From Acidobacteriota bacterium (lineage in GTDB: Bacteria > Acidobacteriota > Thermoanaerobaculia > Multivoradales > Multivoraceae): DNA of 64,000 bases. Position 1 is the first letter of the stretch. Every line of letters starts with the position of its first letter. Positions 50,277 through 64,000 of this stretch are shown one piece after another. The DNA lies in NCBI GenBank assembly GCA_003388555.1, contig QQVD01000040.1, positions 1-64,000 of the forward strand, read 5' to 3'. A program made the position numbers and the translations under genes. The notes beneath the pieces were generated by a model that saw nothing but the letters and a program-made list of their open reading frames with translations, searched no databases and was not told the origin of the DNA.

Positions 50277-50450
50277 ATGTTGAGATGGGCACTGATCTTC
50301 TTCATCCTGGCGCTGGTCGCCGCCCTCTTCGGGTTCGGCGGTATCGCCGGCGCCGCCGCGGGCATCGCCAAGATCCTCTTCTTCATCTTCCTCGTGCTGC
50401 TGGTGGTTTCCGCCATCGTGCACGTCGCGAAGGGCGGCTCACCGGTCTGA
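50277..50450 (+). CDS. DUF1328 small membrane protein (copy 2)
   Basis: This is a 57-residue paralogue of the protein at 49477, with the core [27 protein letters not shown]. About three quarters of residues match between the two copies. The ATG at 50277 has an AGGAG-like site (CTAGGAGTT). Being below typical length cutoffs, it is easily missed. It lies directly after the DUF2188 gene. Confidence 0.9.
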
Positions 50451-50638
50451 GCCGCGCCAGGTCGCCCGCCGCCGTCCTCCTCGCCGCCGTTCAGGCGGCA
50501 TCCGCGGTCGGCTGGCGAGCGAAACGGATCCCGATGAGCGGGGTCCGACAGGAGCGCCGCCGGCCGGCGCTCCTCGGCGTTTCGGAGGGTTGGCCGGCGC
50601 CTGACCGGGAACATCCGCGGGAGGGAGGAGCGGCTGAG

Positions 50639-52267
50639 GTGCAGAAGAGGGTGACCAGCGACGGTGGGAGACCGCAACAGTCCTCCGCGGAGAGCGCCGC
50701 CCATGCCGCGACCGCGTCTCGGCGACTGCTGGTCACCGGCGCCACCGGCTACATCGGCGGTCGACTGGCGCCGCGCCTGCTCGAGCGCGGCTACGCGGTG
50801 CGCTGCCTGGTGCGCTCGGAGGCGAAGCTGCGGGCGCGCCCGTGGACCGATCACCCGAACCTAGAGATCGTCGAGGGCGACGCAGGCGAGCCGGGCGACC
50901 TCGACCGTGCGCTGCGCGGTGTGGAGACCGCCTACTATCTGATCCACTCGATGGTCGTCGCCGGCGCCGAGTACCGCCAGCGCGACCGTCGCCTGGCGGA
51001 GAACTTCGCCGCCGCGGCGCGCCGACAGGGCGTGCGCCGCATCGTCTATCTCGGCGGCCTCGGCGAGACCGGCGAAGGGCTCAGCGACCACCTCAGCTCG
51101 CGCCGGGAGGTCGAGCACGCGCTGGGCTCCGGCGGGGTTCCGGTCACCGTGCTGCGCGCGGCGATGATCATCGGCTCGGGCTCGGCCTCGTTCGAGATCC
51201 TGCGCTACCTGGTCGAGCGGCTGCCGGTGATGGTCACCCCGCGATGGGTGTCGACCCGCTGTCAGCCGATCGCGGTGCGCGACGTCCTCCACTACCTCGC
51301 GGCGTGCCTGGAGGAGCCGGCGACGACCGGCGAGACGCTCGAGATCGGCGGTCCCGACGTCGTCACCTACCTGCAGATGATGCGGTTGATGGAGGAGGCG
51401 CGCGAGCTGCCGCGTCGCCTGATCCTGCCCGTCCCGCTGCTCACTCCGAGGCTGAGCTCCCACTGGATCCACCTGGTCACTCCGCTCAGCCGCCACATCG
51501 CGCGGCCACTGGCCGAGGGGCTGCGCAACGAGGTGGTGGTGCAGGACGATCGTGCCGCACGGCTGATGCCGCACCAGCCGCTTCCGGTGCCGGAGGCGAT
51601 CCGGCTGGCGCTCGAGAACGCGACCTCGCACAGGGTCGAGACGTCGTGGAGCGACGCCGGCCCGATGCCCGGCGATCCCGACTGGGCGGGCGGCTCGGTG
51701 TTCCAGGACAGCTGGGCGGTCGAGGTCGACGCGACGCCGGACGAGGTCTTCGAGGCGGTCTGCCGCATCGGTGGCGGCAACGGCTGGTACGCCGCCGACT
51801 GGCTGTGGCGGCTGCGCGGCTGGATGGACCGGCTGATCGGCGGCCCGGGTCTGCGGCGTGGGCGTCGTCACCCGCGGCAGGTTCGCTACGGAGACGCGCT
51901 CGACTTCTGGCGCGTCACCGAGGTGGCCGAGCCGAGGCGGCTGGCGCTGCGGGCCGAGATGAAGCTGCCCGGTGTCGCCCGGCTCGCCTTCGACATCGAT
52001 CCGCTGGAAGACGACTCGCAGGGTGCAGTGGGCGTCGGCCGGACGCGGCTGATCCAGACCGCACAGTTCATCCCCCGCGGGCTCCTCGGCCTGGCCTACT
52101 GGTACGCCGTCCTGCCGCTGCACTACGTGGTGTTCCGCGGCATGCTGAGGGGGATCCGCGATGCGGTGGAGCAGGCACACTCGCGTCACGACGACGCGCC
52201 GGAGACGGCGGCGACGGGCCGTCGCCGGCACCGCTCGCGGCCGGCTCGCTGGAACGTCGCGGACTGA
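50639..52267 (+). CDS. Atypical SDR with C-terminal DUF2867-like domain
   Basis: This 542-residue protein has an N-terminal atypical short-chain dehydrogenase (NAD-binding) domain with GATGYIGG (residues 34-41) and LVRSEAKLRARPW. YYLIHSMVVAG takes the place of the usual catalytic Tyr-x-x-x-Lys. From about residue 340 comes a second domain, with SWAVEVDATPDEVFEAVCRIGGGNGWY, which resembles DUF2867/START-like ligand-binding domains. It probably binds NAD(P) and a hydrophobic ligand. The GTG at 50639 is preceded by a strong GGGAGGAG; a second in-frame GTG at 50651 is possible. Plus strand, after the DUF1328 cluster. Confidence 0.85.
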   Translation: MQKRVTSDGGRPQQSSAESAAHAATASRRLLVTGATGYIGGRLAPRLLERGYAVRCLVRSEAKLRARPWTDHPNLEIVEGDAGEPGDLDRALRGVETAYYLIHSMVVAGAEYRQRDRRLAENFAAAARRQGVRRIVYLGGLGETGEGLSDHLSSRREVEHALGSGGVPVTVLRAAMIIGSGSASFEILRYLVERLPVMVTPRWVSTRCQPIAVRDVLHYLAACLEEPATTGETLEIGGPDVVTYLQMMRLMEEARELPRRLILPVPLLTPRLSSHWIHLVTPLSRHIARPLAEGLRNEVVVQDDRAARLMPHQPLPVPEAIRLALENATSHRVETSWSDAGPMPGDPDWAGGSVFQDSWAVEVDATPDEVFEAVCRIGGGNGWYAADWLWRLRGWMDRLIGGPGLRRGRRHPRQVRYGDALDFWRVTEVAEPRRLALRAEMKLPGVARLAFDIDPLEDDSQGAVGVGRTRLIQTAQFIPRGLLGLAYWYAVLPLHYVVFRGMLRGIRDAVEQAHSRHDDAPETAATGRRRHRSRPARWNVAD

Positions 52268-52295: not shown

Positions 52296-53699
52296 TCACT
52301 CGAGGCGTCGGCCCTCGTCGAGCAGATCCGCGTCGCCCTCGCGGCGCCGCTCGTCCTCCATCTGGCGATCGATGGTGTCGTCGGCCGAGAGATCCTGTTG
52401 CTCGGTCCGGGATCCCCCGTCCGGCGTCGTTCGCCGCACCGCTGGAGATGGCTGCGGCTTCGTCTCGCCGCCGCCGACAGGGCGCCGCTGCACCTGCAGC
52501 CGGTAGATCGGCTCCGGCATGTCGACGCCGGCGTCGTCGAAGGCGACCTTCACCAGGCGGATCGCCTCGCTGCGCGCCTTGGCGAAGTCGGACTCGCGCT
52601 GGTCGACCCAGGCGAAGAAGCAGAGCACTACGCTCGAGTCGCCGAGCTCCTGCACCAGCGCCAGGGGCTTCGGCTCGGCGATCACTGCGCTCATGCCGGC
52701 GAGCACCCCGAGCCCGATGCGCTGCGCCTCGAGCAGGTCCTCGCCGGCGCCGACCCCGACCGAGAAGTTGAAGCGGCGCAGGGGATTGCGCGAGTAGTTG
52801 AGCACCACGCCCTTGAAGACGTCGGCGTTGGGGATGCGCAGGTGGTTGCCGTCGAGGGTCATCAGGATGGTGGCGCGCGACGTCAGCCGCAGCACCTTGC
52901 CCTCGTGCGAGCCGATCACCACGTGATCGTTGGGTGCGAACGGCTGCCGCAGCGACAGCAGGATCGAGGCGATGTAGTTCTCCACCAGGTCGCGGAAGGC
53001 GAAGCCGACCGCGAGCCCGAGCACCCCGGCGGTGCCGAGCACGGCGCTGACCAGCGCGGTGGCGTCGAGCACGTCGAGCGCCAGCAGCGCACCGACGAGG
53101 AGGATCACGGCGCCGATCACCTGCCGCGCGATGTCGCGCAGGAACCGCGTCCTGAAGACCCGTTCGTAGGGTGCCGACCAACGCACCGCGAGCCGCGACA
53201 GCCCCCAGAAGAGGAGGAGGATGAGCAGCGCGGCGAGGATCAGCGGGATCGACTCGACCACCCTGGTGCCCAGCGTGCGGACCTTGTCCAGCGCCGGCTG
53301 CAGGCGCCGGCGCACGTCGGTCGAGACGTCGACGCCGTCGATGACCTCGGCGACTCCGGCGGTGCGCCGGGCGAGATCGACCGCCCGCTCTGCCGCGCTG
53401 CGCGCCCCGGCGGTGCCGCTCAGGCTGACCACACCGGCGCTGACGTCGACCTCGATCGACTCGGCCCCGGGGATCTGCGCCAGCCGCGTCTCGATCGCGC
53501 TCTCGATCCTCGCGTCGGTGGCCGCGTCGACGGTGACCGAGAGCTCGCCCTCCTGGGCGGAGGCGGGCTGCGTGCCCGCCAGGCAGAGGACCGCTACGAC
53601 CTTTGCGACGACCAACAGCGCCGTCGCGAGAGAGACCGGCCGGCGGTCAGCCGGCCCCGGCGCGCATCGGTCGCTCCGTGTGGGGTAGACAGATCTCAC
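52296..53699 (-). CDS. BON-domain mechanosensitive channel (MscS family)
   Basis: This protein of about 467 residues has a signal-like hydrophobic N-terminus (ATALLVVAKVVAVLCLAGT). A BON domain follows in the periplasm (ATDARIESAIETRLAQ, VSLSGTAGARSAAERAVDLAR), then three or more membrane helices. The MscS pore and cytosolic vestibule begin at LGTAGVLGLAVGFAFRDLVENYIASILLSL and GSHEGKVLRLTSRATIL. MscS channels open under membrane tension during osmotic down-shock. The BON domain may bind lipid or peptidoglycan. GTG 53699 is chosen; the frame is open back to a GTG at 53765, so the start is uncertain. A charged C-terminal tail ends the protein. Confidence 0.85.
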   Translation of the reverse strand: MRSVYPTRSDRCAPGPADRRPVSLATALLVVAKVVAVLCLAGTQPASAQEGELSVTVDAATDARIESAIETRLAQIPGAESIEVDVSAGVVSLSGTAGARSAAERAVDLARRTAGVAEVIDGVDVSTDVRRRLQPALDKVRTLGTRVVESIPLILAALLILLLFWGLSRLAVRWSAPYERVFRTRFLRDIARQVIGAVILLVGALLALDVLDATALVSAVLGTAGVLGLAVGFAFRDLVENYIASILLSLRQPFAPNDHVVIGSHEGKVLRLTSRATILMTLDGNHLRIPNADVFKGVVLNYSRNPLRRFNFSVGVGAGEDLLEAQRIGLGVLAGMSAVIAEPKPLALVQELGDSSVVLCFFAWVDQRESDFAKARSEAIRLVKVAFDDAGVDMPEPIYRLQVQRRPVGGGETKPQPSPAVRRTTPDGGSRTEQQDLSADDTIDRQMEDERRREGDADLLDEGRRLE

Positions 53700-53832
53700 G
53701 AGGTTTGGGATGTGGGGGAGGATGGTGCCACGATGGCGAGAGGCTTCGACGCAGGGCTTCGACACGCTCGCGGCTCGCGCCCAGGAGCCGAGCGGGCACT
53801 CGCCACGGTGACGACGAGAGACCTGTGACCTG

Positions 53833-55275
53833 ATGTGGAAGTGGATCGATTCCCTGCGTGTGCGCTTCCTCGGAGTGCTCGAAGCCGTGCGCGCCAGCTA
53901 CGGCTTCGTGCCGGCTCTGCTGGCCCTCGCCGCCAGCGCCGTCGCGGTGACGCTGGTGCTGGTCGAGCGCTCGGGTGAGCAGGAGTGGCTCGACGACCTG
54001 CCGTGGCTCGGCACCTGGACCGCCGAGAGCTGCCGATCGATCCTACAGGCCGTCGCCAGCTCGTCGATCACCGTCGCCGGCACGGTGTTCTCGATTCTCA
54101 TCGTGGCCTTGACCCTGGCGTCGTCGCAGTTCGGACCGCGTCTGCTGCGCACCTTCCTGCGCGATCGCGGCGCCCAGCTCGCCCTCGGCACCTTCGTCGC
54201 CACCTTCCTCTACTCGCTGCTGGTGCTCAGCGCGGTGCGCGACGAGCAGGTGCCGCGGCTGGCGACGGCCGGTGCCGTCGCCATGGCCGTGCTGTCCACC
54301 GCGATGCTGGTCCTCGTGCTGCACCGTTCGAGCGTCACCCTGCAGGCCAACGAGCTGCTCGCGGCTCTCGCTGCCGAGCTGCGCGACCAGGTGGAGTCGC
54401 TGCCCGAGCTCGCGGGTGACGACGACGGCACGTCTGGGGACTCGGAGGGGGATGGCGACGCTCGTCGGGACGATCTGGAGGGCGACGACCCGCTCCTCGA
54501 GGCGAGCGGAAGCGGCGGGCTCGAGATCCGGGCCGCGCCGCATGGGGACGGCTACCTGCGCGCGGTCGACGTCGACGCCCTGGTCGAGCTGGCGCGGCGT
54601 CAGGACGCCGTCGTCGAGCTGGCGATCGGGCCGGGGGCCTTCGTCTTCCCCGGCGCGCTTCTGGCACGCCTGAGATTCCCTCCTGGGAAGAGCGGCGACG
54701 GCGAGGAGGACGAGATCGTCGATGAGATCCGGGCCGCGCTCTCCGTCGGCTCGAGCCGCAGCTCGGTGCAGGATCTCGGCTTCCTTCTCGATCAGCTGGT
54801 CGAGATGGCGCTGCGTGCCCTGTCGCCCGGCATCAACGATCCCACCACCGCCAGCGCCTGCGTGCACCGGATCGGCGCGGCGCTCTGCCTGCTGCAGGGC
54901 CGCCGGCTGCCGCCCGCACGGCTTCGCGACGCCCGAGGTCGGGTGCGGCTGGTGCGGCCGTCGGTGAGTCTGGTGCGGCTCGCTGCCCGGACCTTCGAGC
55001 CGATCCGGCGGGCCGGTATCTCACATCCTGGCGTCGTGTTGACCCTGATCGAGACCGCAGCCGAGGTCTCACTCCAGCAGGCCCTGCGGCGGGGAAGCGA
55101 CGACCTCGCTACGTGGTACCGGGAGTTCGCCGCCGACACCGTCGAGCAGGTGCGGGCGGCCGGCGCGCCCGATCCCACCGTCGAGCAGGTGGAGCGCGCA
55201 CACCGCTCCTCGATGAGCGAGTACGGCGAGCTCACGCGCGCCGCTCGGCGAGCAGCGCCTCCACCGGTTGGCTGA
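53833..55275 (+). CDS. DUF2254 membrane protein
   Basis: This 480-residue protein has four hydrophobic segments in its first 170 residues: RASYGFVPALLALAASAVAVTLVLV, SSITVAGTVFSILIVALTLASSQ, TFVATFLYSLLVLSAV and VAMAVLSTAMLVLVL. The cytosolic part has the DUF2254 motifs DLGFLLDQLVEMALRALSPGINDPTTA and an acidic insert. The family has no known activity; a role in membrane integrity is a guess. It is divergent from the MscS gene by 133 bp. Its end overlaps the end of the opposite MATE gene by 44 bases. Confidence 0.88.
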   Translation: MWKWIDSLRVRFLGVLEAVRASYGFVPALLALAASAVAVTLVLVERSGEQEWLDDLPWLGTWTAESCRSILQAVASSSITVAGTVFSILIVALTLASSQFGPRLLRTFLRDRGAQLALGTFVATFLYSLLVLSAVRDEQVPRLATAGAVAMAVLSTAMLVLVLHRSSVTLQANELLAALAAELRDQVESLPELAGDDDGTSGDSEGDGDARRDDLEGDDPLLEASGSGGLEIRAAPHGDGYLRAVDVDALVELARRQDAVVELAIGPGAFVFPGALLARLRFPPGKSGDGEEDEIVDEIRAALSVGSSRSSVQDLGFLLDQLVEMALRALSPGINDPTTASACVHRIGAALCLLQGRRLPPARLRDARGRVRLVRPSVSLVRLAARTFEPIRRAGISHPGVVLTLIETAAEVSLQQALRRGSDDLATWYREFAADTVEQVRAAGAPDPTVEQVERAHRSSMSEYGELTRAARRAAPPPVG

Positions 55276-56635
55276 GCCGCCGGCGGGTGCGCAGCACCAG
55301 CAGCACCGCGGTGGTCGCCAGACCCAGAGTGAGGCCCCACCAGAGGCCGCGGGGCCCGAGCTCCAGCGGGAAGGCGAGCAGCCACGCGGCCGGCAGGCCG
55401 AGGCCCCAGAAGCCGATCAGGGCCAGGGCGGCGGGCAGCAGGGTGTCGGCGGCGCCGCGCAGCACCCCGGCTGCCACCACCTGAAGCCCGTCGACGATCT
55501 GGAACGCGGCGGCGATCGGCAGCAGCGTCGCCGCCACCGCGATGACCTCGGGCTCGGGTGTGTAGAGGCGTCCGAGCAGTCGCGGGAAGGCGGCGAAGGT
55601 GAGCGCCGACAGGCTCATCGCGGCCGCGCCGAGCCCGAGCGAGACGACCGCGGCGCGCCGCGCCGCCTCGACGTCGCGGCGGCCGATGGCGTTGCCGACC
55701 CGGGTCGCCGCGGCGCCGGCGACGCCGAGCGGCACCATGAAGGCGAGCGATGCGAGGTTGAGGGCGATCTGGTGGCCGGCGAACTGCACCGCGCCGAGGG
55801 CACCCATCATCAGCGCCACCAGCGAGAAGATCCAGTACTCTGCCGCCTGTTGCAGCGAGATCGGCACGCCCAGGCGCACCAGGTCGACGAAGGCGCCCGG
55901 GCGCAGCGCTCGTGAGAGGGCCGAGCTGCGCGCCGCCGAGCGCGCCGGGACCACCTGCCGGATCAGGGGCCAGGAGGCGGCGACGAGCACCAGCAGCAGC
56001 ACCCAGCGCGAGATCGAGGTCGCCAGCCCGGATCCCAGCACTCCGAGCGCGGGAGCGCCGAAGCCGCCGAACACCAGGGCGTAGTTGGCGACCACGTTGA
56101 CCAGGTTGCCGGCCACCACCGCGAGCACCGCCGGCCGCACGATCGACATCGACTGCAGGGTCTGGCGCACCAGGAAGAAGAGCAGGAAGCCCGGCATCCC
56201 GGGGACGACGCCACGCAGGTACTCGGTGGACAGCGGCACGATCTCCGGCTGCTGCCGCAGCCAGTGCAGCTGAGGACCGACGAACCAGAGGCCGAGCATG
56301 GTGAGCAGGGAGAGGGTGCCGACGACGACGAGGCCGCGCACCAGGTGGCGCAGCACCGCGGCCCGGTCGCCGGCTCCGTGCGCCTGCGACACCAGCGGGT
56401 CCACCGCCATGATCAGCCCGAAGGCTGGCGCCGCGATGCCGAAGGTGACGGCAGTGCCGAGGGCGCCTGCCGCCAGCGCCTCCTTGGAGAGGCGGCCGAG
56501 CATCATCGTGTCGACGGTGCCCATCAGCAGCATGCCGAGCTGCACGGTGACGATCGGGGCGGCCAGGCGCGCCACCTCCCTCACCTCGCGGCGAATGCTC
56601 ACCCGCGGCGGGGAGGCGGTGCTCGGAATGCTCAT
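55232..56635 (-). CDS. MATE family efflux transporter
   Basis: This 467-residue protein has 12 hydrophobic segments of the MATE (NorM-like) fold. Repeated family segments are IVTVQLGMLLMGTVDTMMLGRL in the first half and GVPISLQQAAEYWIFSLVALMMGALGAV in the second. MATE proteins export drugs or metabolites using sodium or proton gradients. The ATG is at 56635. It is convergent with the DUF2254 gene, overlapping it by 44 bases at the 3' ends. The substrate is not predictable. Confidence 0.93.
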   Translation of the reverse strand: MSIPSTASPPRVSIRREVREVARLAAPIVTVQLGMLLMGTVDTMMLGRLSKEALAAGALGTAVTFGIAAPAFGLIMAVDPLVSQAHGAGDRAAVLRHLVRGLVVVGTLSLLTMLGLWFVGPQLHWLRQQPEIVPLSTEYLRGVVPGMPGFLLFFLVRQTLQSMSIVRPAVLAVVAGNLVNVVANYALVFGGFGAPALGVLGSGLATSISRWVLLLVLVAASWPLIRQVVPARSAARSSALSRALRPGAFVDLVRLGVPISLQQAAEYWIFSLVALMMGALGAVQFAGHQIALNLASLAFMVPLGVAGAAATRVGNAIGRRDVEAARRAAVVSLGLGAAAMSLSALTFAAFPRLLGRLYTPEPEVIAVAATLLPIAAAFQIVDGLQVVAAGVLRGAADTLLPAALALIGFWGLGLPAAWLLAFPLELGPRGLWWGLTLGLATTAVLLVLRTRRRLSQPVEALLAERRA

Positions 56636-56844
56636 GGGGTGGGCGGGGCGGTGGCTGAGGGGAACCCGTCGGCCGCGGCCGATCAGTCTATGTGCGGGCG
56701 CGGTCGATGGCGGGGCCTCGGGTCTCCCGGTCCGCCGGGGAGTCCTCGCACCGCTCGCGCCCGGCGCATGATGGGCGCCCCGGTAGAATCGGTGGATGCA
56801 TCGACAGCACGGCCGGGCGACGCCGAGTCGTCCGGGCTCCTAGG

Positions 56845-59235
56845 GTGACCGGCTCCGGCGGCGAACCGGTGGCGACGGGCTCCGCATCGGCGGTGCCCGC
56901 CGCGGCGGCGACGGCGGCCGCTGACGGGACGGATTCCGTGTCGCTCTGGCCGCCGGAGAGCGCCGGTCGTCCGGTCGTCTTCCTGGCCGATCTGCGGCGT
57001 CCCTTCGAGGCCGAGATCCTGCGCCGCAGGATCGAGCGGGCGAAGCCCGGGGACCGCTCCGCAGGGTGGCGTCTGGTGCCGATCTCCGACCGCTCCGGAG
57101 GCGCCTCGCAGGCTCTGCGCTCGGCCCTCGGCGAGGAGGTGTGGCTGCAGCCGGTACGGCTGTTCTGGCGCCCGGCCGGGGAAGGGCGCAGCGGCCTGTG
57201 GGGCGAGATCCGCGAGGCGCTGAGCGGCAACCCCGGTCGGCGGCGAGGCCGCCGGCTGGCGCGCCGGGAGCCGGAGCGAGCCCAGGTGCTGGTCGGCGCC
57301 GGGGCGCTGCGCAGCGAGGTCGAGGAGCGCTACCACTCGGTGTGGGACGCGCGCCAGGAGCACGCCACCCTGGCCGACTTCGTCGCCCGCCAGGCACTGG
57401 TGGTGCTCGAGCGCGCCGAACGCGCGGCGCGTGGGGCGCGCTACAAGGTGCCGCGGCTGCTGCCGCGCGACGTCTTCTCGAACCGCCGCTTCCGGGACCA
57501 GCTGGAGGCCATCGCGGAGCGCGAGGGCGTGTCGCTGCACAAGGTCGATGCGCGCGCGGCGCGATACCTGCGGGAGATGGCGGCCACCCAGACGCCGCTG
57601 ACGCTCGACGTGGTGATGGCCGTGCAGCAGGCGATGACCAGGGCCAACCACGACCCCGTGATCGACGTCGTCGAGGAGCAGATGGAGACGGTGAGGCAGC
57701 TCGTGCGCTCGCGCCCGGTCGCCTTCGTGATGACCCACAAGTCGATGCTCGACTCGATGGCCCTGCAGTGCGTGCTCTGGCGGCGCAACCTGCCGATGCC
57801 GCTGACCTTCGGCGGCATCAACATGAACACGCCGGGGATCGGCGCCCTGGCGCGGCGCGCCGGGGTGATCTTCCTGCGCCGCTCGTTCCAGGACAACGCG
57901 GTCTACAAGGCGACCTTCCGGCGCTACATCGACTACCTGATCGAGAAGCGCTTCTCGCTGCTCTGGGCGCTCGAAGGCACCCGCTCGCGCACTGGCAAGC
58001 TGCTTCCGCCGCGCTACGGGCTGTTCAACTACGTGGTGCAGGCGATCCTGCGCACCCACGTCTTCGACGTCACCTTCGTGCCGGTGAACATCACCTACGA
58101 CCAGATCACCGAGGTGGCCGACTACGCCAGCGAGCAGCTCGGACGCGACAAGAAGCCCGAGGGCGCCGGCTGGTTCGTGCGCTTCCTGCGCGGCGGCGCG
58201 CCTCACGGCCGTATCTTCCTACGTTTCGGCGCGCCGCTGACCCTGCCCGACCTGGTGCCGCTCGAGCGGCTCGAGGAGGGGCTCGACGAGGCGGGTCAGC
58301 AGGCCGCGGTGCAGCGCCTCGCCTTCGAGACTGCGGTGCGCATGAACGGCGTCACGCCGATCACGCCGACCGCGATCGTCACCCTGATCCTGCTCGCCTC
58401 GGACGCCAGGGCGCAGTCGCTGCGTAGCATCCAGCATCCGGCCCGCGCCGGCATGGCGCTGGTGCGCCGTCGTCGCCTCGAGGTCGTCGGACGCACCGAC
58501 TTCAAGCGCGACGAGGCGCTGCGCGAGGTGCTCGAGCAGCTGATCGCCACCGGGGTCGTCACCCGCTACGACGAGGGCGAAGAGCCGCTCTACGGCATCG
58601 CCGAGGCACAGCACCTCAAGGCGGCCTACTACCGCAACACGATCATCCACTTCTTCGTCGTCGATGCGCTGATCGAGCTCTCGCTGCTCCAGGCTGCGGG
58701 CCGCGACGAGGCCGCTTTCTGGGCCGAGATGCTGCGGCTGCGCGACCTGTTCAAGCACGAGTTCTACTTCCGGCGCCGCGACGAGTTCCGCCGCTACGCC
58801 GAGTCGTTGCTCACTCAGCGCTTCCCACGCTGGCGCGAGCGGCTCCCCGAGGGCGCCGAGGCGGTGCGCGGGATGCTGTCGGGCGTCGATCCGCTGCTCT
58901 CGCACGCGGTGCTGCGCTCGTTCGTCGACGCCTACTGGGTCGTGGCGCGCCGCCTGGGCCAGCTCGACGGCGCCGCCGTGGGCGATCGCAAGGAGTTCGT
59001 GCGCGACTGCCTCAGGCTGGGTCGGCAGCTGCGCCTCGAGGGCCGCATCTTCTCCGAGGAGTCGGTGTCGCGCAGCCTCTACGAGACGGCGCTCAAGGTC
59101 GCCGAGGGGCGGGGGCTGCTCGGCGACGAGAGCGGCGCCGATCCGGCGGCGCGCCGCGTCTTCGTCGAGCAGCTGCGCTCGCTCGGTCGCCGGCTCGATG
59201 AAGTACTCTCGCTGGGTCGCGCGCCGGCCGACTGA
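56845..59235 (+). CDS. PlsB-like glycerol-3-phosphate acyltransferase
   Basis: This protein of about 796 residues has the four acyltransferase blocks of the PlsB/GPAT family. Block I is MTHKSMLDS (His298, Asp303) and block II is GVIFLRRSFQDN. Block III is ALEGTRSRTGKLLPPRYG and block IV VTFVPVNITYDQ. It would make lysophosphatidic acid from glycerol-3-phosphate and acyl thioester at the membrane. The length matches PlsB, and the C-terminal third is helical. The start is uncertain: the GTG at 56845 or an earlier GTG or ATG near 56692. It precedes a HAD-PlsC gene by 35 bp, so the pair could make phosphatidic acid in two steps. Confidence 0.88.
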   Translation: MTGSGGEPVATGSASAVPAAAATAAADGTDSVSLWPPESAGRPVVFLADLRRPFEAEILRRRIERAKPGDRSAGWRLVPISDRSGGASQALRSALGEEVWLQPVRLFWRPAGEGRSGLWGEIREALSGNPGRRRGRRLARREPERAQVLVGAGALRSEVEERYHSVWDARQEHATLADFVARQALVVLERAERAARGARYKVPRLLPRDVFSNRRFRDQLEAIAEREGVSLHKVDARAARYLREMAATQTPLTLDVVMAVQQAMTRANHDPVIDVVEEQMETVRQLVRSRPVAFVMTHKSMLDSMALQCVLWRRNLPMPLTFGGINMNTPGIGALARRAGVIFLRRSFQDNAVYKATFRRYIDYLIEKRFSLLWALEGTRSRTGKLLPPRYGLFNYVVQAILRTHVFDVTFVPVNITYDQITEVADYASEQLGRDKKPEGAGWFVRFLRGGAPHGRIFLRFGAPLTLPDLVPLERLEEGLDEAGQQAAVQRLAFETAVRMNGVTPITPTAIVTLILLASDARAQSLRSIQHPARAGMALVRRRRLEVVGRTDFKRDEALREVLEQLIATGVVTRYDEGEEPLYGIAEAQHLKAAYYRNTIIHFFVVDALIELSLLQAAGRDEAAFWAEMLRLRDLFKHEFYFRRRDEFRRYAESLLTQRFPRWRERLPEGAEAVRGMLSGVDPLLSHAVLRSFVDAYWVVARRLGQLDGAAVGDRKEFVRDCLRLGRQLRLEGRIFSEESVSRSLYETALKVAEGRGLLGDESGADPAARRVFVEQLRSLGRRLDEVLSLGRAPAD

Positions 59236-59270
59236 GCTCGATCCAGCGCGCGGGGGAGGGTCGTTCCCGA

Positions 59271-60698
59271 GTGAGCACGCCGCGGGTCCGCAAACTGATC
59301 GCCCAGATCGAGTCGAGCCCCGAGGGGCCCGGCGTCGCCGCGCTGTTCGACCTCGACCGCACCCTGATCCAGGGCTACTCCGCGGTCGACGTGCTGGTCG
59401 AGCGGCTGCGTCGGCGCGAGATCAGCCTGGCGCAGCTCGGCGAGGCGCTGCGCCACGCCTACGACTTCTCGAGCGAGAAGATCGACTTCCGCGAGTTCGT
59501 GCGCCGCTCTGCCGTCGACGCCGCGGGCCGTCCGGACGAGCAGAACGTCGCCTTCGGCCGCGAGCTGTTCGATCGCCGCATCGCGCGCCGCATCTTCCCG
59601 GAGGCGAGGGCGCTGGTGGCGGCCCACCGCCGCCGCGGCCACACCCTGGCGGTGGTCTCCTCGGCGACCCCGTACCAGGTGGATCCGGTGGCGGAAGACC
59701 TGGGGATCCCGCACGTGGTGTGCACCCGGCTGCGCATCGACGACGGCATCTGCAGCGGCGAGATCGACGGCGAGCCGTGCTACGGCATCGGCAAGGTGGA
59801 GGGCGCCAGGCGGCTCGCCGAGGCGAACGGCTTCGACCTCGAGCGCAGCTTCTTCTACAGCGACAGCCACGAGGACCTGCCGCTGCTCGAGGCGGTCGCC
59901 CACCCCCGGGCGCTGAATCCGAACTGGCGGCTCGCCGAGGAGGCGCGGCGTCGCGGCTGGCCGCTGGTGCGCTTCCACTCGCGCGGCCGGCCCAGCACCG
60001 AGCAGGTGGTGCGCACCGGCATGGCCTACGGCGCCATGCTGCCCGCCGCCTGGGCGGGGCTCAGCGACTACCTGATGACCGGCTCGGTGCGCCGGGCGCG
60101 CAACACGGCGACTGTGGTGTGGAGCGAGCTGGCGACCCGCGCCGTCGACCTGCGCCTGGTGGTCGACGGCAAGGAGCATCTCTGGTCGCGCCGCCCCGCG
60201 GTGTTCGTGTTCAACCACCAGAGCGCGCTCGATGCCCTGGTGGTCGCCAAGCTGCTGCGTCGCGACATCACGGGTGTGGCCAAGAAGGAGGTCAAGCGCC
60301 AGCCGGTGGTGGGTCAGCTGTTCCAGGCCGGCGGCGTCGTGTTCATCGACCGCGCCGACCGCAAGAAGGCGATCGCGGCGATGCAGCCGGCGGTCGAGGC
60401 GCTGCGCGGCGGCATCTCGATCGCCATCGCTCCGGAGGGGACCCGCAGCACGACGCGTCGGCTCGGCCGGTTCAAGAAGGGGGCCTTCCACATGGCGATC
60501 GACGCCGGCGTGCCGATGGTCCCGATCGTGATCCGCAACGCCCACGACCGCATGCCGAAGGGCGCCGTCTTCTCGCAGCCGGGAGTCGTCGAGGTCAAGG
60601 TGCTGCCGCCGGTCGACACCGCGGAGTGGAGCAAGAGCACGATCGACCAGCACGTCGAGGAGGTGCGGTCGATGTTCGCGGCGAACCTGGGCGAGTGA
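59271..60698 (+). CDS. HAD-IB phosphatase / PlsC acyltransferase fusion
   Basis: This 475-residue protein joins a HAD-IB hydrolase (FDLDRTL with Asp27/Asp29, SSATPYQ, SDSHEDLPLLEAV) to a PlsC-type acyltransferase. In the second domain, NHQSALD (His316, Asp321) is the HX4D catalytic site and IAPEGTRSTTRRLGRFKKGAFHMA is the substrate block. HAD-PlsC fusions occur in mycobacteria and other bacteria. The phosphatase could act on a lipid phosphate or regulate the acyl transfer. The start is GTG, with a GGGGGAGGG site. It follows the PlsB-like gene, and the neighbouring genes share the same strand. Confidence 0.9.
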   Translation: MSTPRVRKLIAQIESSPEGPGVAALFDLDRTLIQGYSAVDVLVERLRRREISLAQLGEALRHAYDFSSEKIDFREFVRRSAVDAAGRPDEQNVAFGRELFDRRIARRIFPEARALVAAHRRRGHTLAVVSSATPYQVDPVAEDLGIPHVVCTRLRIDDGICSGEIDGEPCYGIGKVEGARRLAEANGFDLERSFFYSDSHEDLPLLEAVAHPRALNPNWRLAEEARRRGWPLVRFHSRGRPSTEQVVRTGMAYGAMLPAAWAGLSDYLMTGSVRRARNTATVVWSELATRAVDLRLVVDGKEHLWSRRPAVFVFNHQSALDALVVAKLLRRDITGVAKKEVKRQPVVGQLFQAGGVVFIDRADRKKAIAAMQPAVEALRGGISIAIAPEGTRSTTRRLGRFKKGAFHMAIDAGVPMVPIVIRNAHDRMPKGAVFSQPGVVEVKVLPPVDTAEWSKSTIDQHVEEVRSMFAANLGE

Positions 60699-60735
60699 TG
60701 ACCGCCGCGTCGTTGCAGCAGAGACGGCCGATCCG

Positions 60736-61680
60736 ATGAGCGGTCTCGGTGACGACGCCGTGGTGCGCAGCGTCGAAGGTCTGCTCGAGGGCCATGCCTC
60801 GCAGCGCGAGCGGTGCCTCGACTGCGAGGCGCCGCTGCACGGCCTCTACTGCAGTCGCTGCGGCCAGAAGTCGACCCGCGGCGTCGAGGTGTCGCTGCGT
60901 CAGTTCGGCCGCGAGGCGCTCGACAGCGTGTTCTCGTTCGACTCACGGATCTGGCGCACCCTGCGCCTGCTGATCGCGCAGCCCGGCCGGCTGAGCGTCG
61001 AGTACTGGCAGGGGCGACGGGCGCGCTACGTGGCGCCGCTGCGCCTCTACCTCTTCGTCAGCTTCGTCGCCTTCCTCGCCCTCGGGCTGTTCGGCGAGGG
61101 AGAGCTGGTGACCACCGGCGAGATCCGATCCGACGGCGGAATCGTGCAGATCTCGTCCGGCGCCAGGGACACCGGCTCCGACGAGGGGACCGGCAACGAG
61201 GATCCCGACATCGACTGGCAGACGGACTTCGCCGACGCGCCGGCGCCGCTGCGCTGGTTCCTGCTCGAGATCGTGCGCCCGGCGATCGAGAACCCCGAGC
61301 GCATCCAGACGATCTTCGCCCAGCGGCTGCCCTGGGCCATCTTCCTGATGGTGCCGTTCTTCGCTGCGTTGCTGAAGATCCTCTTCCGCCGCCCGCGACG
61401 CTACTTCGTCGCCCATCTGGTGTTCTCGCTGCATCTGCACGCCGCCGCCTTCCTGCTCATCGCCGTGGGGGCGACCGCCGACTGGCTCACCGGCAGTGAG
61501 CTCCCCTCCACCGTCGCCGTCGTGGCGATCGTCGTCCTGCTGCTCCTCTCCCTGCGCACGGCGTATGCCGACGGCTGGCTGCTGTCGGCGCTGAAGACGG
61601 CGCTCCTGGTCTTCGTGCACACCCTGGCGCTGTCCGCCGTCACGGTGCTGACGGTGATGGTCAGCGCCCTGTCGCTTTGA
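60736..61680 (+). CDS. DUF3667 membrane protein with zinc-ribbon
   Basis: This 314-residue protein has an N-terminal zinc-binding unit (Cys27, Cys30, Cys39, Cys42 in CLDCEAPLHGLYCSRCGQ). The DUF3667 membrane segment (RLLIAQPGRLSVEYWQGRRARYVAPLRLYLFVSFVAFLAL) and three to five further hydrophobic helices follow. The family is of unknown function. The ATG lies 37 bases after the HAD-PlsC gene, and its stop overlaps the DMT gene start as TTGA. It is in the middle of a phospholipid-linked operon, so a membrane-related role is plausible. Confidence 0.88.
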   Translation: MSGLGDDAVVRSVEGLLEGHASQRERCLDCEAPLHGLYCSRCGQKSTRGVEVSLRQFGREALDSVFSFDSRIWRTLRLLIAQPGRLSVEYWQGRRARYVAPLRLYLFVSFVAFLALGLFGEGELVTTGEIRSDGGIVQISSGARDTGSDEGTGNEDPDIDWQTDFADAPAPLRWFLLEIVRPAIENPERIQTIFAQRLPWAIFLMVPFFAALLKILFRRPRRYFVAHLVFSLHLHAAAFLLIAVGATADWLTGSELPSTVAVVAIVVLLLLSLRTAYADGWLLSALKTALLVFVHTLALSAVTVLTVMVSALSL

Positions 61681-62606
61681 GCGCGGGAAGCGGTCGGGAC
61701 CTGGCCGCTGCTTCCCCGCGCCGGGGATCGGCGGCGCGCGCCGCCTTGCTGGTGGCCTCGTCGGCGTTCGGCTTCTCGTGCATGCACGCCCTGATCCGCT
61801 TCGTCTCGGCCGACCTGCACAGTTTCCAGATCGCCTTCTTCCGCAACCTCTTCGGCCTCGTGGTGCTGCTGCCGTTCTTCGTGCGCCATGGCGGCGCGGT
61901 GCTGTCCACGGCGCGTTTCGGCGAGCACTTCGTGCGCTCGCTGCTGCAGACCGGCGCGATGCTGAGCTTCTTCCTCGCCCTGTCGATGACGCCGCTGGTC
62001 AAGGCGTCGGCGCTGAGCTTCACCGCGCCGCTCTTCGCCGGCGTCGGCGCCGTGGTGCTGCTCGGCGAGCACCTGAGGCTGCGGCGGGTCATCGCGCTGA
62101 TCGTCGGCTTCGGCGGCGCGCTGCTGATCGTGCGCCCGGGCGTCATCCCGATCGACCGCGGGGCGATCCTGGTGCTCGTCTCCTCGGCCCTCTGGGCGCT
62201 GGCGATGCTGTTGATCAAACGTATGACGGCCACCGAGTCGAGCGCCACCCTGACCGCCTGGATGTGTCTGCTGATGACCCCGATGACGTTGCTGCCGGCG
62301 CTCGCCGTCTGGCGCTGGCCCGACGCCAGGCACTGGCTGCTGCTGCTGGCGCTCGGCGTCGTCGGCGCCTCGTCGCAGTACGTGATGGCCGAGGGCTTCC
62401 GGCTCGCCGACGCGTCGACGGTGCTGCCGGCCGACTTCACCCGGCTGATCTGGGCCTCGGTCCTCGGCTGGGTGCTGTTCGGCGAGATCCCCTCCGGCTG
62501 GACCTACGCCGGAGCGTCGCTGATCCTGGGTGCCACCGCCTTCCTCGCCTACCGCGAGTCACGTCGCCAACCACCGGCCAGGGTTGCCGAGCAGGGGTCG
62601 AGTTGA
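61677..62606 (+). CDS. DMT-family (EamA) transporter
   Basis: This 309-residue protein has ten hydrophobic segments in two EamA halves. The first includes ASSAFGFSCMHALIRFVSADLHSFQIAFFRN and the second SSALWALAMLLIKRMTATES. It is similar to the S-adenosylmethionine or metabolite exporters of the drug/metabolite superfamily. The TTG start overlaps the DUF3667 stop as TTGA. The next gene starts on its own stop in the same way. The substrate is unknown. Confidence 0.9.
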   Translation: MSAGSGRDLAAASPRRGSAARAALLVASSAFGFSCMHALIRFVSADLHSFQIAFFRNLFGLVVLLPFFVRHGGAVLSTARFGEHFVRSLLQTGAMLSFFLALSMTPLVKASALSFTAPLFAGVGAVVLLGEHLRLRRVIALIVGFGGALLIVRPGVIPIDRGAILVLVSSALWALAMLLIKRMTATESSATLTAWMCLLMTPMTLLPALAVWRWPDARHWLLLLALGVVGASSQYVMAEGFRLADASTVLPADFTRLIWASVLGWVLFGEIPSGWTYAGASLILGATAFLAYRESRRQPPARVAEQGSS

Positions 62607-63571
62607 GCCCGGGTCGATGCCCGGGGCGGTGGGGCTCGGTGGCGGCGAACGTCGGCATCGCCCTGCTCCTGTCCGGCGCGACGTTCGCGGCGCCCGCGTT
62701 GCCAACGCCCTCCGCCGAGGCGTCGGAGGAGTCGGTGCAGCGGACGATCGCCGCTGCCGTCGACGCCGCGCGGCGGGATGCGGCAGCCGATCTCGCGCCC
62801 CAACTCGCCTGCTACACCGGTGCGCCGTGGCTCGGTGTGCTACGGCCGCGCGCCTGCGCGCTGCCGGGGGACCTGGAGCGGGTCTCGGCCGTCCGCGAGC
62901 AGCTGCTGCGCCACTTCGGTGCGGTGGTCGCCGCAGCGCGGCCCGCCGCTGCGGTTGCGACGCCGGAAGCCGCCTGGATCCTCGACTGGCTGGTGCAGGA
63001 GCCGGCGCCGGAGCCGCTGGTCGGGGCGATCCGCTACCGCGCCCAGATCAAGATCCGTGGTGGCCGCCAGGACACCCGGCTCGTCGAGTACACGCTGCTC
63101 GGCGCCGGGATGGGAGCGGAGCCGTTGCTCGCCGACGTCGGCGCTGTGCGGCTCGAGCTCCCACTCCCGCCGCCGGCCGCAGACGCCGGCGAGGCCGTGC
63201 GCCAGGCGTTCACCCGGTTGATGGCGCTGGTACACGCGCCGCTGGATACCCGCCGCCGTGTCGCCGCGGCAGCCGAGCTGCTGTGCTGTGGCGAGGGTGC
63301 GACGCCCTGCGGCCACTCAGAGGACGACGCGTCCCAGGTGGCGCGCCGGCTGCAGGAGCTGACGGTGCTCCTGCGGCGCTCCGGCGCGACCGGCTGGGGA
63401 CTTGGTGACGCGGAGCTCCGCCGCGGCACTGAGGTCCCGGAGCTCGTTCTGGAGGTGGGGTGGCTCGAGGGTGGAGTGAACGGTGCCGCCGATCGCCACG
63501 TCCGTGAGCGTGCGGTCTTCCGCGGTCGCGGGGATGGCTGGTGTCTCGGCGGCTGGGAGCCCGAGGGCTGA
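62603..63571 (+). CDS. Secreted protein of unknown function, Cys-rich
   Basis: This protein of about 322 residues has a signal peptide (VGIALLLSGATFAAPA), but no domain I recognise. Several Cys residues (CYTG, RACALPG, CCGEGATPCGH) may form disulfides. Its start is a TTG overlapping the DMT stop as TTGA; a GTG at about 62640 would also give a good signal peptide. Segments such as VGAIRYRAQIKIRGGRQDTRLVEYTLLG suggest a beta-rich binding domain. It ends the plus-strand operon. Its stop faces the partial FG-GAP gene. Confidence 0.72.
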   Translation: MSPGRCPGRWGSVAANVGIALLLSGATFAAPALPTPSAEASEESVQRTIAAAVDAARRDAAADLAPQLACYTGAPWLGVLRPRACALPGDLERVSAVREQLLRHFGAVVAAARPAAAVATPEAAWILDWLVQEPAPEPLVGAIRYRAQIKIRGGRQDTRLVEYTLLGAGMGAEPLLADVGAVRLELPLPPPAADAGEAVRQAFTRLMALVHAPLDTRRRVAAAAELLCCGEGATPCGHSEDDASQVARRLQELTVLLRRSGATGWGLGDAELRRGTEVPELVLEVGWLEGGVNGAADRHVRERAVFRGRGDGWCLGGWEPEG

Positions 63572-63602
63572 CCGGGTGATGCGTCCCCACCGAGCGCCGC
63601 GA

Positions 63603-64000
63603 TTACTGCCGCGCCGCGGGCTCGATCCGCCACACCGCGACGCGGCCGCCGCTCGCGCAGCCGCTCGCCGTGCCCGTCGGTCCCTGGCCCCGCTCTCCGG
63701 AGAGCAGAGCCACGAGGTGCAGCTCACCGGGGCGCAGGAAGGCGACGCGGAGATCGCGCACCGTGCAGCCCGGACTCGAATCGGTCAGCTCCGTGGAGGC
63801 CTCGGCAACGAAGCCACCTTCCGCGTCCGCGAGCAGCAGCGCGATCTCGCCGTCGCCGGTGCCGAAGGCGATGTCGAGCGCGCCGTCGCCGTCGAAGTCC
63901 GCCGTGGCGATCGACCAGATGCCGCTCTGGCCGGGACGGGAGTCGAGCGATCGGCGCCGCCACGAGCCTTCGCCACCGGGAGCGGCGGGAGTGAAGGCGT
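63603..64000 (-). CDS. FG-GAP repeat protein, 3' end only
   Basis: The last codons of a minus-strand gene run off the right edge, so its start lies outside the window. The visible about 132 residues include SIATADFDGDGALDIAFGTGDGEIALLL, a clear FG-GAP/VCBS calcium loop. The rest is less conserved and ends VAVWRIEPAARQ. It is probably a secreted propeller protein like those at 19600 and 23079, but no UnbV domain is present at this end. No start or signal can be judged. Confidence 0.8.
   Translation of the reverse strand, partial: AFTPAAPGGEGSWRRRSLDSRPGQSGIWSIATADFDGDGALDIAFGTGDGEIALLLADAEGGFVAEASTELTDSSPGCTVRDLRVAFLRPGELHLVALLSGERGQGPTGTASGCASGGRVAVWRIEPAARQ

Follow-up and report, generated by a model that had tools for sequence, protein, structure and literature searches.

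The locus and its acyltransferase pair

In the genome of an Acidobacteriota bacterium of the family Multivoraceae, the first 64,000 nucleotides of contig QQVD01000040.1 (assembly GCA_003388555.1) constitute the stretch analysed here, hereafter called the window. Near its end lie five plus-strand open reading frames (ORFs) that encode a PlsB-like glycerol-3-phosphate acyltransferase (GPAT), a HAD-type phosphatase fused to a PlsC-type 1-acylglycerol-3-phosphate acyltransferase (AGPAT; the fusion is called HAD-PlsC below), a DUF3667 membrane protein, a DMT-type transporter and a last protein that belongs to no Pfam family (Table 1). The intergenic spacings are 35 and 37 nucleotides, followed by two 4-nucleotide overlaps (genes 3/4 and 4/5), both of which read TTGA; the tight plus-strand layout described in a first-pass annotation, including the overlaps that join the last three genes, was thus verified in its coordinates. 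That annotation treated the five genes as a single lipid operon. From the comparisons assembled here, the acyltransferase pair at the head of the row is a known kind of gene cluster in a new place, while the remainder is an ordinary gene neighbourhood.

The assignment of the first two genes is supported by family models as well as by motifs. The PlsB-like protein exceeds the Pfam cut-offs for both GPAT_C (223 bits) and Acyltransferase (71 bits), and carries the acyltransferase motifs HKSMLD and LEGTRS in an alignment. It is related to the PRK03355 equivalog (NCBIfam NF002886) yet falls outside it, scoring 675 bits against a cut-off of 721, and it lies far below the cut-off of the PlsB equivalog TIGR03703 (234.6 versus 618.5 bits). 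HAD-PlsC matches the HAD and Acyltransferase families of Pfam; within NCBIfam, its N-terminal part (residues 23-218) is HAD-IB by TIGR01490 (156.7 bits, cut-off 98.3) and its C-terminal part (residues 296-421) is an AGPAT by TIGR00530 (113.8 bits, cut-off 102.95). The motifs DLDRT, VSSAT, GIGKVEG and YSDSHEDLP occur in the HAD half, and NHQSALD and EGTRS in the PlsC half, which together we take to be the catalytic sets of both domains. The domain calls originally made for the first four genes hold, and the proposal that two acyltransferases of successive steps in phosphatidic acid synthesis lie side by side is upheld both by these family matches and by the recurrence of the same clustering in distant bacteria.

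Table 1. Genes of the five-gene row and the genes that flank it, in window coordinates
Feature	Position	Strand	Remarks
PlsB-like glycerol-3-phosphate acyltransferase	56845..59235	+	796 amino acids, GTG start
HAD-IB phosphatase fused to 1-acylglycerol-3-phosphate acyltransferase (HAD-PlsC)	59271..60698	+	475 amino acids, GTG start
DUF3667 membrane protein	60736..61680	+	314 amino acids, ATG start
DMT-type (EamA) transporter	61677..62606	+	309 amino acids, TTG start
Last protein, no Pfam family	62603..63571	+	322 amino acids, TTG start
MatE gene	55232-56635	-	Pfam assignment; divergent, 209 nucleotides upstream of plsB
FG-GAP repeat protein gene	63603-63998	-	partial, runs off window end; convergent with last gene

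Distribution and origin of the pair

The relatives considered are 59 further genomes drawn from the window's family and order, and every count given here excludes the window's own genome. Among them there is no match to PlsB and none to HAD-PlsC that extends into the HAD half (both at E <= 1e-20). The acyltransferase half of HAD-PlsC alone is matched at that threshold in 28 of the 59, best at 48 % identity over residues 240-473 in a 246-residue frame. In a wider draw from the phylum, PlsB matches at E <= 1e-20 turned up in at least nine of 395 other genomes, all of them divergent (25-35 % identical), and no HAD-PlsC homologue was found in the 3.6-4.8 kb around each of those nine loci. Only the best two candidates per genome were scored in the phylum search for PlsB, and the best four in the class search for HAD-PlsC described next, so divergent members may be undercounted in both.

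The nearest PlsB found, by a genome-contig search limited to one locus, belongs to a metagenome-assembled genome (MAG) of the Parvibaculaceae and is 48 % identical. Its PlsB gene (locus L094) is flanked directly by WS/DGAT (wax ester synthase/diacylglycerol acyltransferase) upstream and by HAD-PlsC downstream, with GpsA divergent. Within the class to which this MAG belongs, HAD-PlsC occurs at E <= 1e-50 in seven of 385 genomes, the MAG included, and in all seven, homologues of PlsB, WS/DGAT and GpsA lie within 12 kb of it (for one, G523, two overlapping stretches were read). Four of the seven share the window's order of plsB followed by HAD-plsC; three of those four are mutually 98-99 % identical and hence non-independent. 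Further afield, PlsB is adjacent to HAD-PlsC on a plasmid of Mycobacterium paragordonae, with WS/DGAT about 2.5 kb away, and on a plasmid of Nocardia farcinica, where the 6 kb fetched to either side hold no WS/DGAT. PlsB was therefore present in the neighbourhood of HAD-PlsC in all nine loci read outside the window, and the clustering of plsB with HAD-plsC is of a known kind that recurs in distant bacteria.

Because the pair (56845-60698) was found in none of the 59 relatives, and given the identity of its nearest relatives, we infer that it was acquired laterally. In a PlsB tree of ten sequences, the window protein groups with the Parvibaculaceae clade with a support of 0.999. The alternative, gene loss in every sampled relative, would explain the same distribution less economically. 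Several observations nonetheless speak against transfer or blur its source. The GC content at third codon positions and the codon distance of the pair are within the range of other window genes, giving no compositional sign of transfer; the nearest sequences are merely 46-49 % identical, which does not pin down a donor; the corresponding HAD-PlsC tree, also of ten sequences, places the window protein with the Parvibaculaceae clade at a support of only 0.63; and the window's genus has no second species among the listed relatives. No donor is claimed. Contamination of the assembly by a foreign contig is not favoured, as the window's family is the source of the top five matches to DUF3667 and also of the sole close one to DMT, and the contig thus fits its genome.

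The three genes that follow

The DUF3667 protein scores well above the gathering cut-off of its Pfam family (PF12412; 63.4 bits against 27) and has an N-terminal CxxC/CxxC zinc-ribbon-like motif followed by a helical membrane part. In an alignment with 14 of 18 extracted homologues (L009, L015, L016 and L029 were dropped, mostly for uncertain starts), its four cysteines are invariant and its start matches those of its nearest relatives. The AlphaFold model consists of long helices (pLDDT 78.5). Foldseek found no match to it in the PDB at E <= 0.001, and VIA-align, applied to Foldseek's list, gave Z <= 6.1, in the range of a common arrangement; this absence of a fold match carries no functional information. 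The transporter has two stretches of EamA (PF00892; 120.9 bits, gathering cut-off 28.2). The last protein, which Pfam does not match, is very likely a real protein rather than a chance ORF, as a homologue that is 37-38 % identical (E 1.3e-16) is encoded in another genome of the order. Its putative secretion is read solely from a single N-terminal hydrophobic stretch at residues 12-30. The top Foldseek match of its low-confidence model (pLDDT 45.8) is an NTF2-like chain (E 0.0037, TM-score 0.21-0.26), a weak hint of such a fold, and none reached E 0.001 or better. NCBIfam also gives it a weak hit, Rv0361_Cterm, which at 19.8 bits stays below the cut-off of 37 and was not used.

The neighbourhoods of these genes elsewhere bear directly on whether they belong with the pair. 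DUF3667 is present in 29 of the 59 relatives, with the five best matches all in the window's family, and in ten stretches of 9-19 kb around its homologues (L082-L091) nothing matches PlsB, HAD-PlsC or the DMT protein at E <= 1e-8; apparently it is a gene of the lineage and a mere neighbour of the lipid pair. The DMT transporter is matched in 13 of the 59 at E <= 1e-10, and exceeds 32 % identity in only one, G003 of the same family (60 %), where its contig is 3.4 kb long and has a nitroreductase gene as the upstream neighbour, while DUF3667 sits on a different contig beside a sugar transferase. The last protein has a homologue in one of the 59; the 10 kb around it, which end about 300 bases downstream, hold no homologue of PlsB, HAD-PlsC, DUF3667 or DMT. 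Phylum-wide, no last-protein homologue was reported in 395 other genomes, at most the five best candidates per genome being scored, and G059 also went unreported, so that it was either missed or not drawn.

That the five genes form one operon for lipid synthesis and export, with the DUF3667, DMT and last proteins moving or remodelling the products, is accordingly very unlikely, although the shared strand, the short gaps and the two overlaps fit it, as do the likeness of DUF3667 to a membrane protein and the membership of EamA proteins among transporters. When conservation of the five-gene order was checked, as the first-pass annotation had suggested, it turned up in no genome besides the window's own, neither among the 59 relatives nor at the nine HAD-PlsC loci outside the window. 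Lack of conservation in relatives is what that annotation had named as refuting its model, and a conserved five-gene lipid unit was rejected on that count. Homologues of the three genes are apart from PlsB in all relatives examined, and no DUF3667, DMT or last-protein homologue occurs at E <= 1e-4 in any of the nine HAD-PlsC neighbourhoods. Separated as the genes are in ten DUF3667, nine HAD-PlsC and one last-protein neighbourhoods, the earlier suggestions that the three form part of a lipid unit and that they export or remodel lipid are both unsupported, though in this one genome they might still do so. They lie on the same strand as the pair and may be co-transcribed with it, but no conserved link was found. 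Slightly less probable still is the idea that after its transfer the pair became joined with them, a secreted and perhaps NTF2-like protein included, in a single transcription unit, which would amount to a new lineage-specific route for placing or exporting neutral lipid or a precursor.

A consensus scan of 56400-63900 returned no sigma-70-like site (0.1 in shuffles) and three terminator-like sites (1.2 in shuffles), all of them intragenic and none between genes. The 37-nucleotide gap accommodates a 13-codon ORF (60698-60739, plus strand) whose first base is the final base of the HAD-plsC stop codon and which terminates within the DUF3667 start codon; it is compatible with, though no proof of, a translational-coupling leader. 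Farther upstream, the window encodes an MscS-type mechanosensitive channel with a fused BON domain (52296-53765, minus strand), an adjoining DUF2254 membrane protein (53833-55275, plus strand) and an NAD-binding/NmrA domain fused to DUF2867 (50285-52267, plus strand).

A proposed role in neutral-lipid synthesis and its known counterparts

On balance, the plsB-HAD-plsC pair is probably a laterally acquired piece of a Kennedy-pathway (triacylglycerol) cassette, of the type found in mycolic-acid-containing Actinomycetota and some Pseudomonadota, and would supply diacylglycerol to WS/DGATs encoded elsewhere in the genome. Judging from family membership, PlsB would convert glycerol-3-phosphate to lysophosphatidate and the PlsC half lysophosphatidate to phosphatidate, from which the HAD half would most likely remove the phosphate to give diacylglycerol, phosphatidate being its presumed substrate. 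A WS/DGAT would then take the flux on to wax ester or triacylglycerol, and might do so in growing cells too, not for storage alone. The host genome has two WS/DGAT genes, both on one other contig. With PlsY and a further PlsC-like gene it also has the usual route to membrane lipids, to which the pair would be an addition.

Both the host (L114:7847-8287, minus strand, 146 amino acids; G000:C54) and G003 (L118:5862-6254, plus strand, 130 amino acids) carry a small ORF with a DVDxT motif that immediately follows a WS/DGAT gene. The two products are 56 % identical, have no Pfam match at E <= 0.01 and in NCBIfam reach at most a weak HAD-IIB score (20.4 bits, cut-off 137); no copy was found in the WS/DGAT locus L117 of G001. 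This protein may provide a second phosphatase that acts in the formation of diacylglycerol.

The link to neutral lipid has to be weighed against a number of contrary facts. The window's contig contains no WS/DGAT (E <= 0.01) or GpsA homologue. Every one of the family's 23 other genomes has WS/DGAT without PlsB, as do 53 of the 59 relatives overall, none of which has PlsB; its presence there makes WS/DGAT independent of the pair. The HAD-PlsC of Nocardia farcinica plasmid 2 (L136:5203-7380, plus strand) retains its acyltransferase motifs while its HAD motifs look degenerate, with FDLSAVL in place of the DxDxT of the others, and that of M. paragordonae has an Asp-to-Asn change in one HAD motif; these substitutions suggest that the fusion can do without its phosphatase half and that the phosphatase step may not be universal. 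In Rhodococcus, moreover, the atf9-plsB-plsC operon, which its authors call 'house-keeping', has lowered transcripts under nitrogen limitation, when triacylglycerol accumulates (atf9 5.4-fold less, plsC also; PMC4850399). Since that operon is not storage-induced, what the pair feeds may be wrongly described as 'storage'; the role proposed for the rhodococcal operon is nevertheless still the synthesis of triacylglycerol in growing cells.

Some of these facts lend themselves to another explanation, whereby the pair makes membrane phospholipid, for example from exogenous acyl-CoA, the HAD half acts on phosphatidylglycerophosphate or a soluble metabolite, and no neutral lipid results. PlsB and PlsC yield phosphatidate irrespective of what becomes of it, no WS/DGAT gene adjoins the pair, storage does not induce the operon of Rhodococcus (PMC4850399), and weaker matches of the HAD half include phosphoserine phosphatase structures and NCBIfam histidinol-phosphatase models, the NCBIfam ones all below their cut-offs. 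However, the genome already has PlsY and another PlsC-like gene, and WS/DGAT is in the cluster in all seven HAD-PlsC genomes of the Parvibaculaceae class; this explanation is rather unlikely. It is more doubtful that the HAD half dephosphorylates lysophosphatidate to monoacylglycerol, by analogy with certain land-plant GPATs, in which a similar phosphatase-acyltransferase pairing releases sn-2 monoacylglycerol (PMC5945757). In the window, by contrast, PlsB stands as a protein of its own, the acyltransferase of the fusion exceeds the cut-off of the 1-acylglycerol-3-phosphate family TIGR00530, and the clustering with WS/DGAT elsewhere favours diacylglycerol.

If the diacylglycerol-supplying role is true, the HAD-PlsC neutral-lipid cassette would extend to a lineage whose searched relatives are without HAD-PlsC. 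It would also offer an enzyme of diverged sequence with which to ask whether the missing phosphatidate phosphatase is to be found in the fused HAD domain, a point left open in the passages considered from PMC4850399 and from PMC10351704, the latter describing Kennedy-pathway clusters in Alpha- and Gammaproteobacteria.

One counterpart is the atf9-plsB-plsC operon of Rhodococcus jostii RHA1, present in other rhodococci and mycobacteria (M. tuberculosis Rv2483c is named), which is reported to be co-transcribed and whose plsC is a HAD fusion, the HAD domain being proposed as a phosphatidate phosphatase (PMC4850399). Like it, the window has PlsB and a HAD-AGPAT fusion, i.e. successive enzymes of the Kennedy pathway; unlike it, the unit has no WS/DGAT (atf9), and DUF3667, DMT and the last gene follow instead. 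The land-plant GPATs AtGPAT4/6/8 (PMC5945757) offer an analogy, drawn without comparison of sequences, in that phosphatase and acyltransferase share one polypeptide, but they acylate sn-2 and give monoacylglycerol, whereas the window's fusion is of the AGPAT type and its GPAT is separate. Nearest of all are the GpsA-WS/DGAT-PlsB-HAD-PlsC clusters of the Parvibaculaceae class (L094 and L127-L133), four of the seven having a PlsB that is 46-48 % and a HAD-PlsC that is 48-49 % identical, in the same plsB-then-HAD-plsC order as the window, whose contig differs from them in being without GpsA and WS/DGAT.

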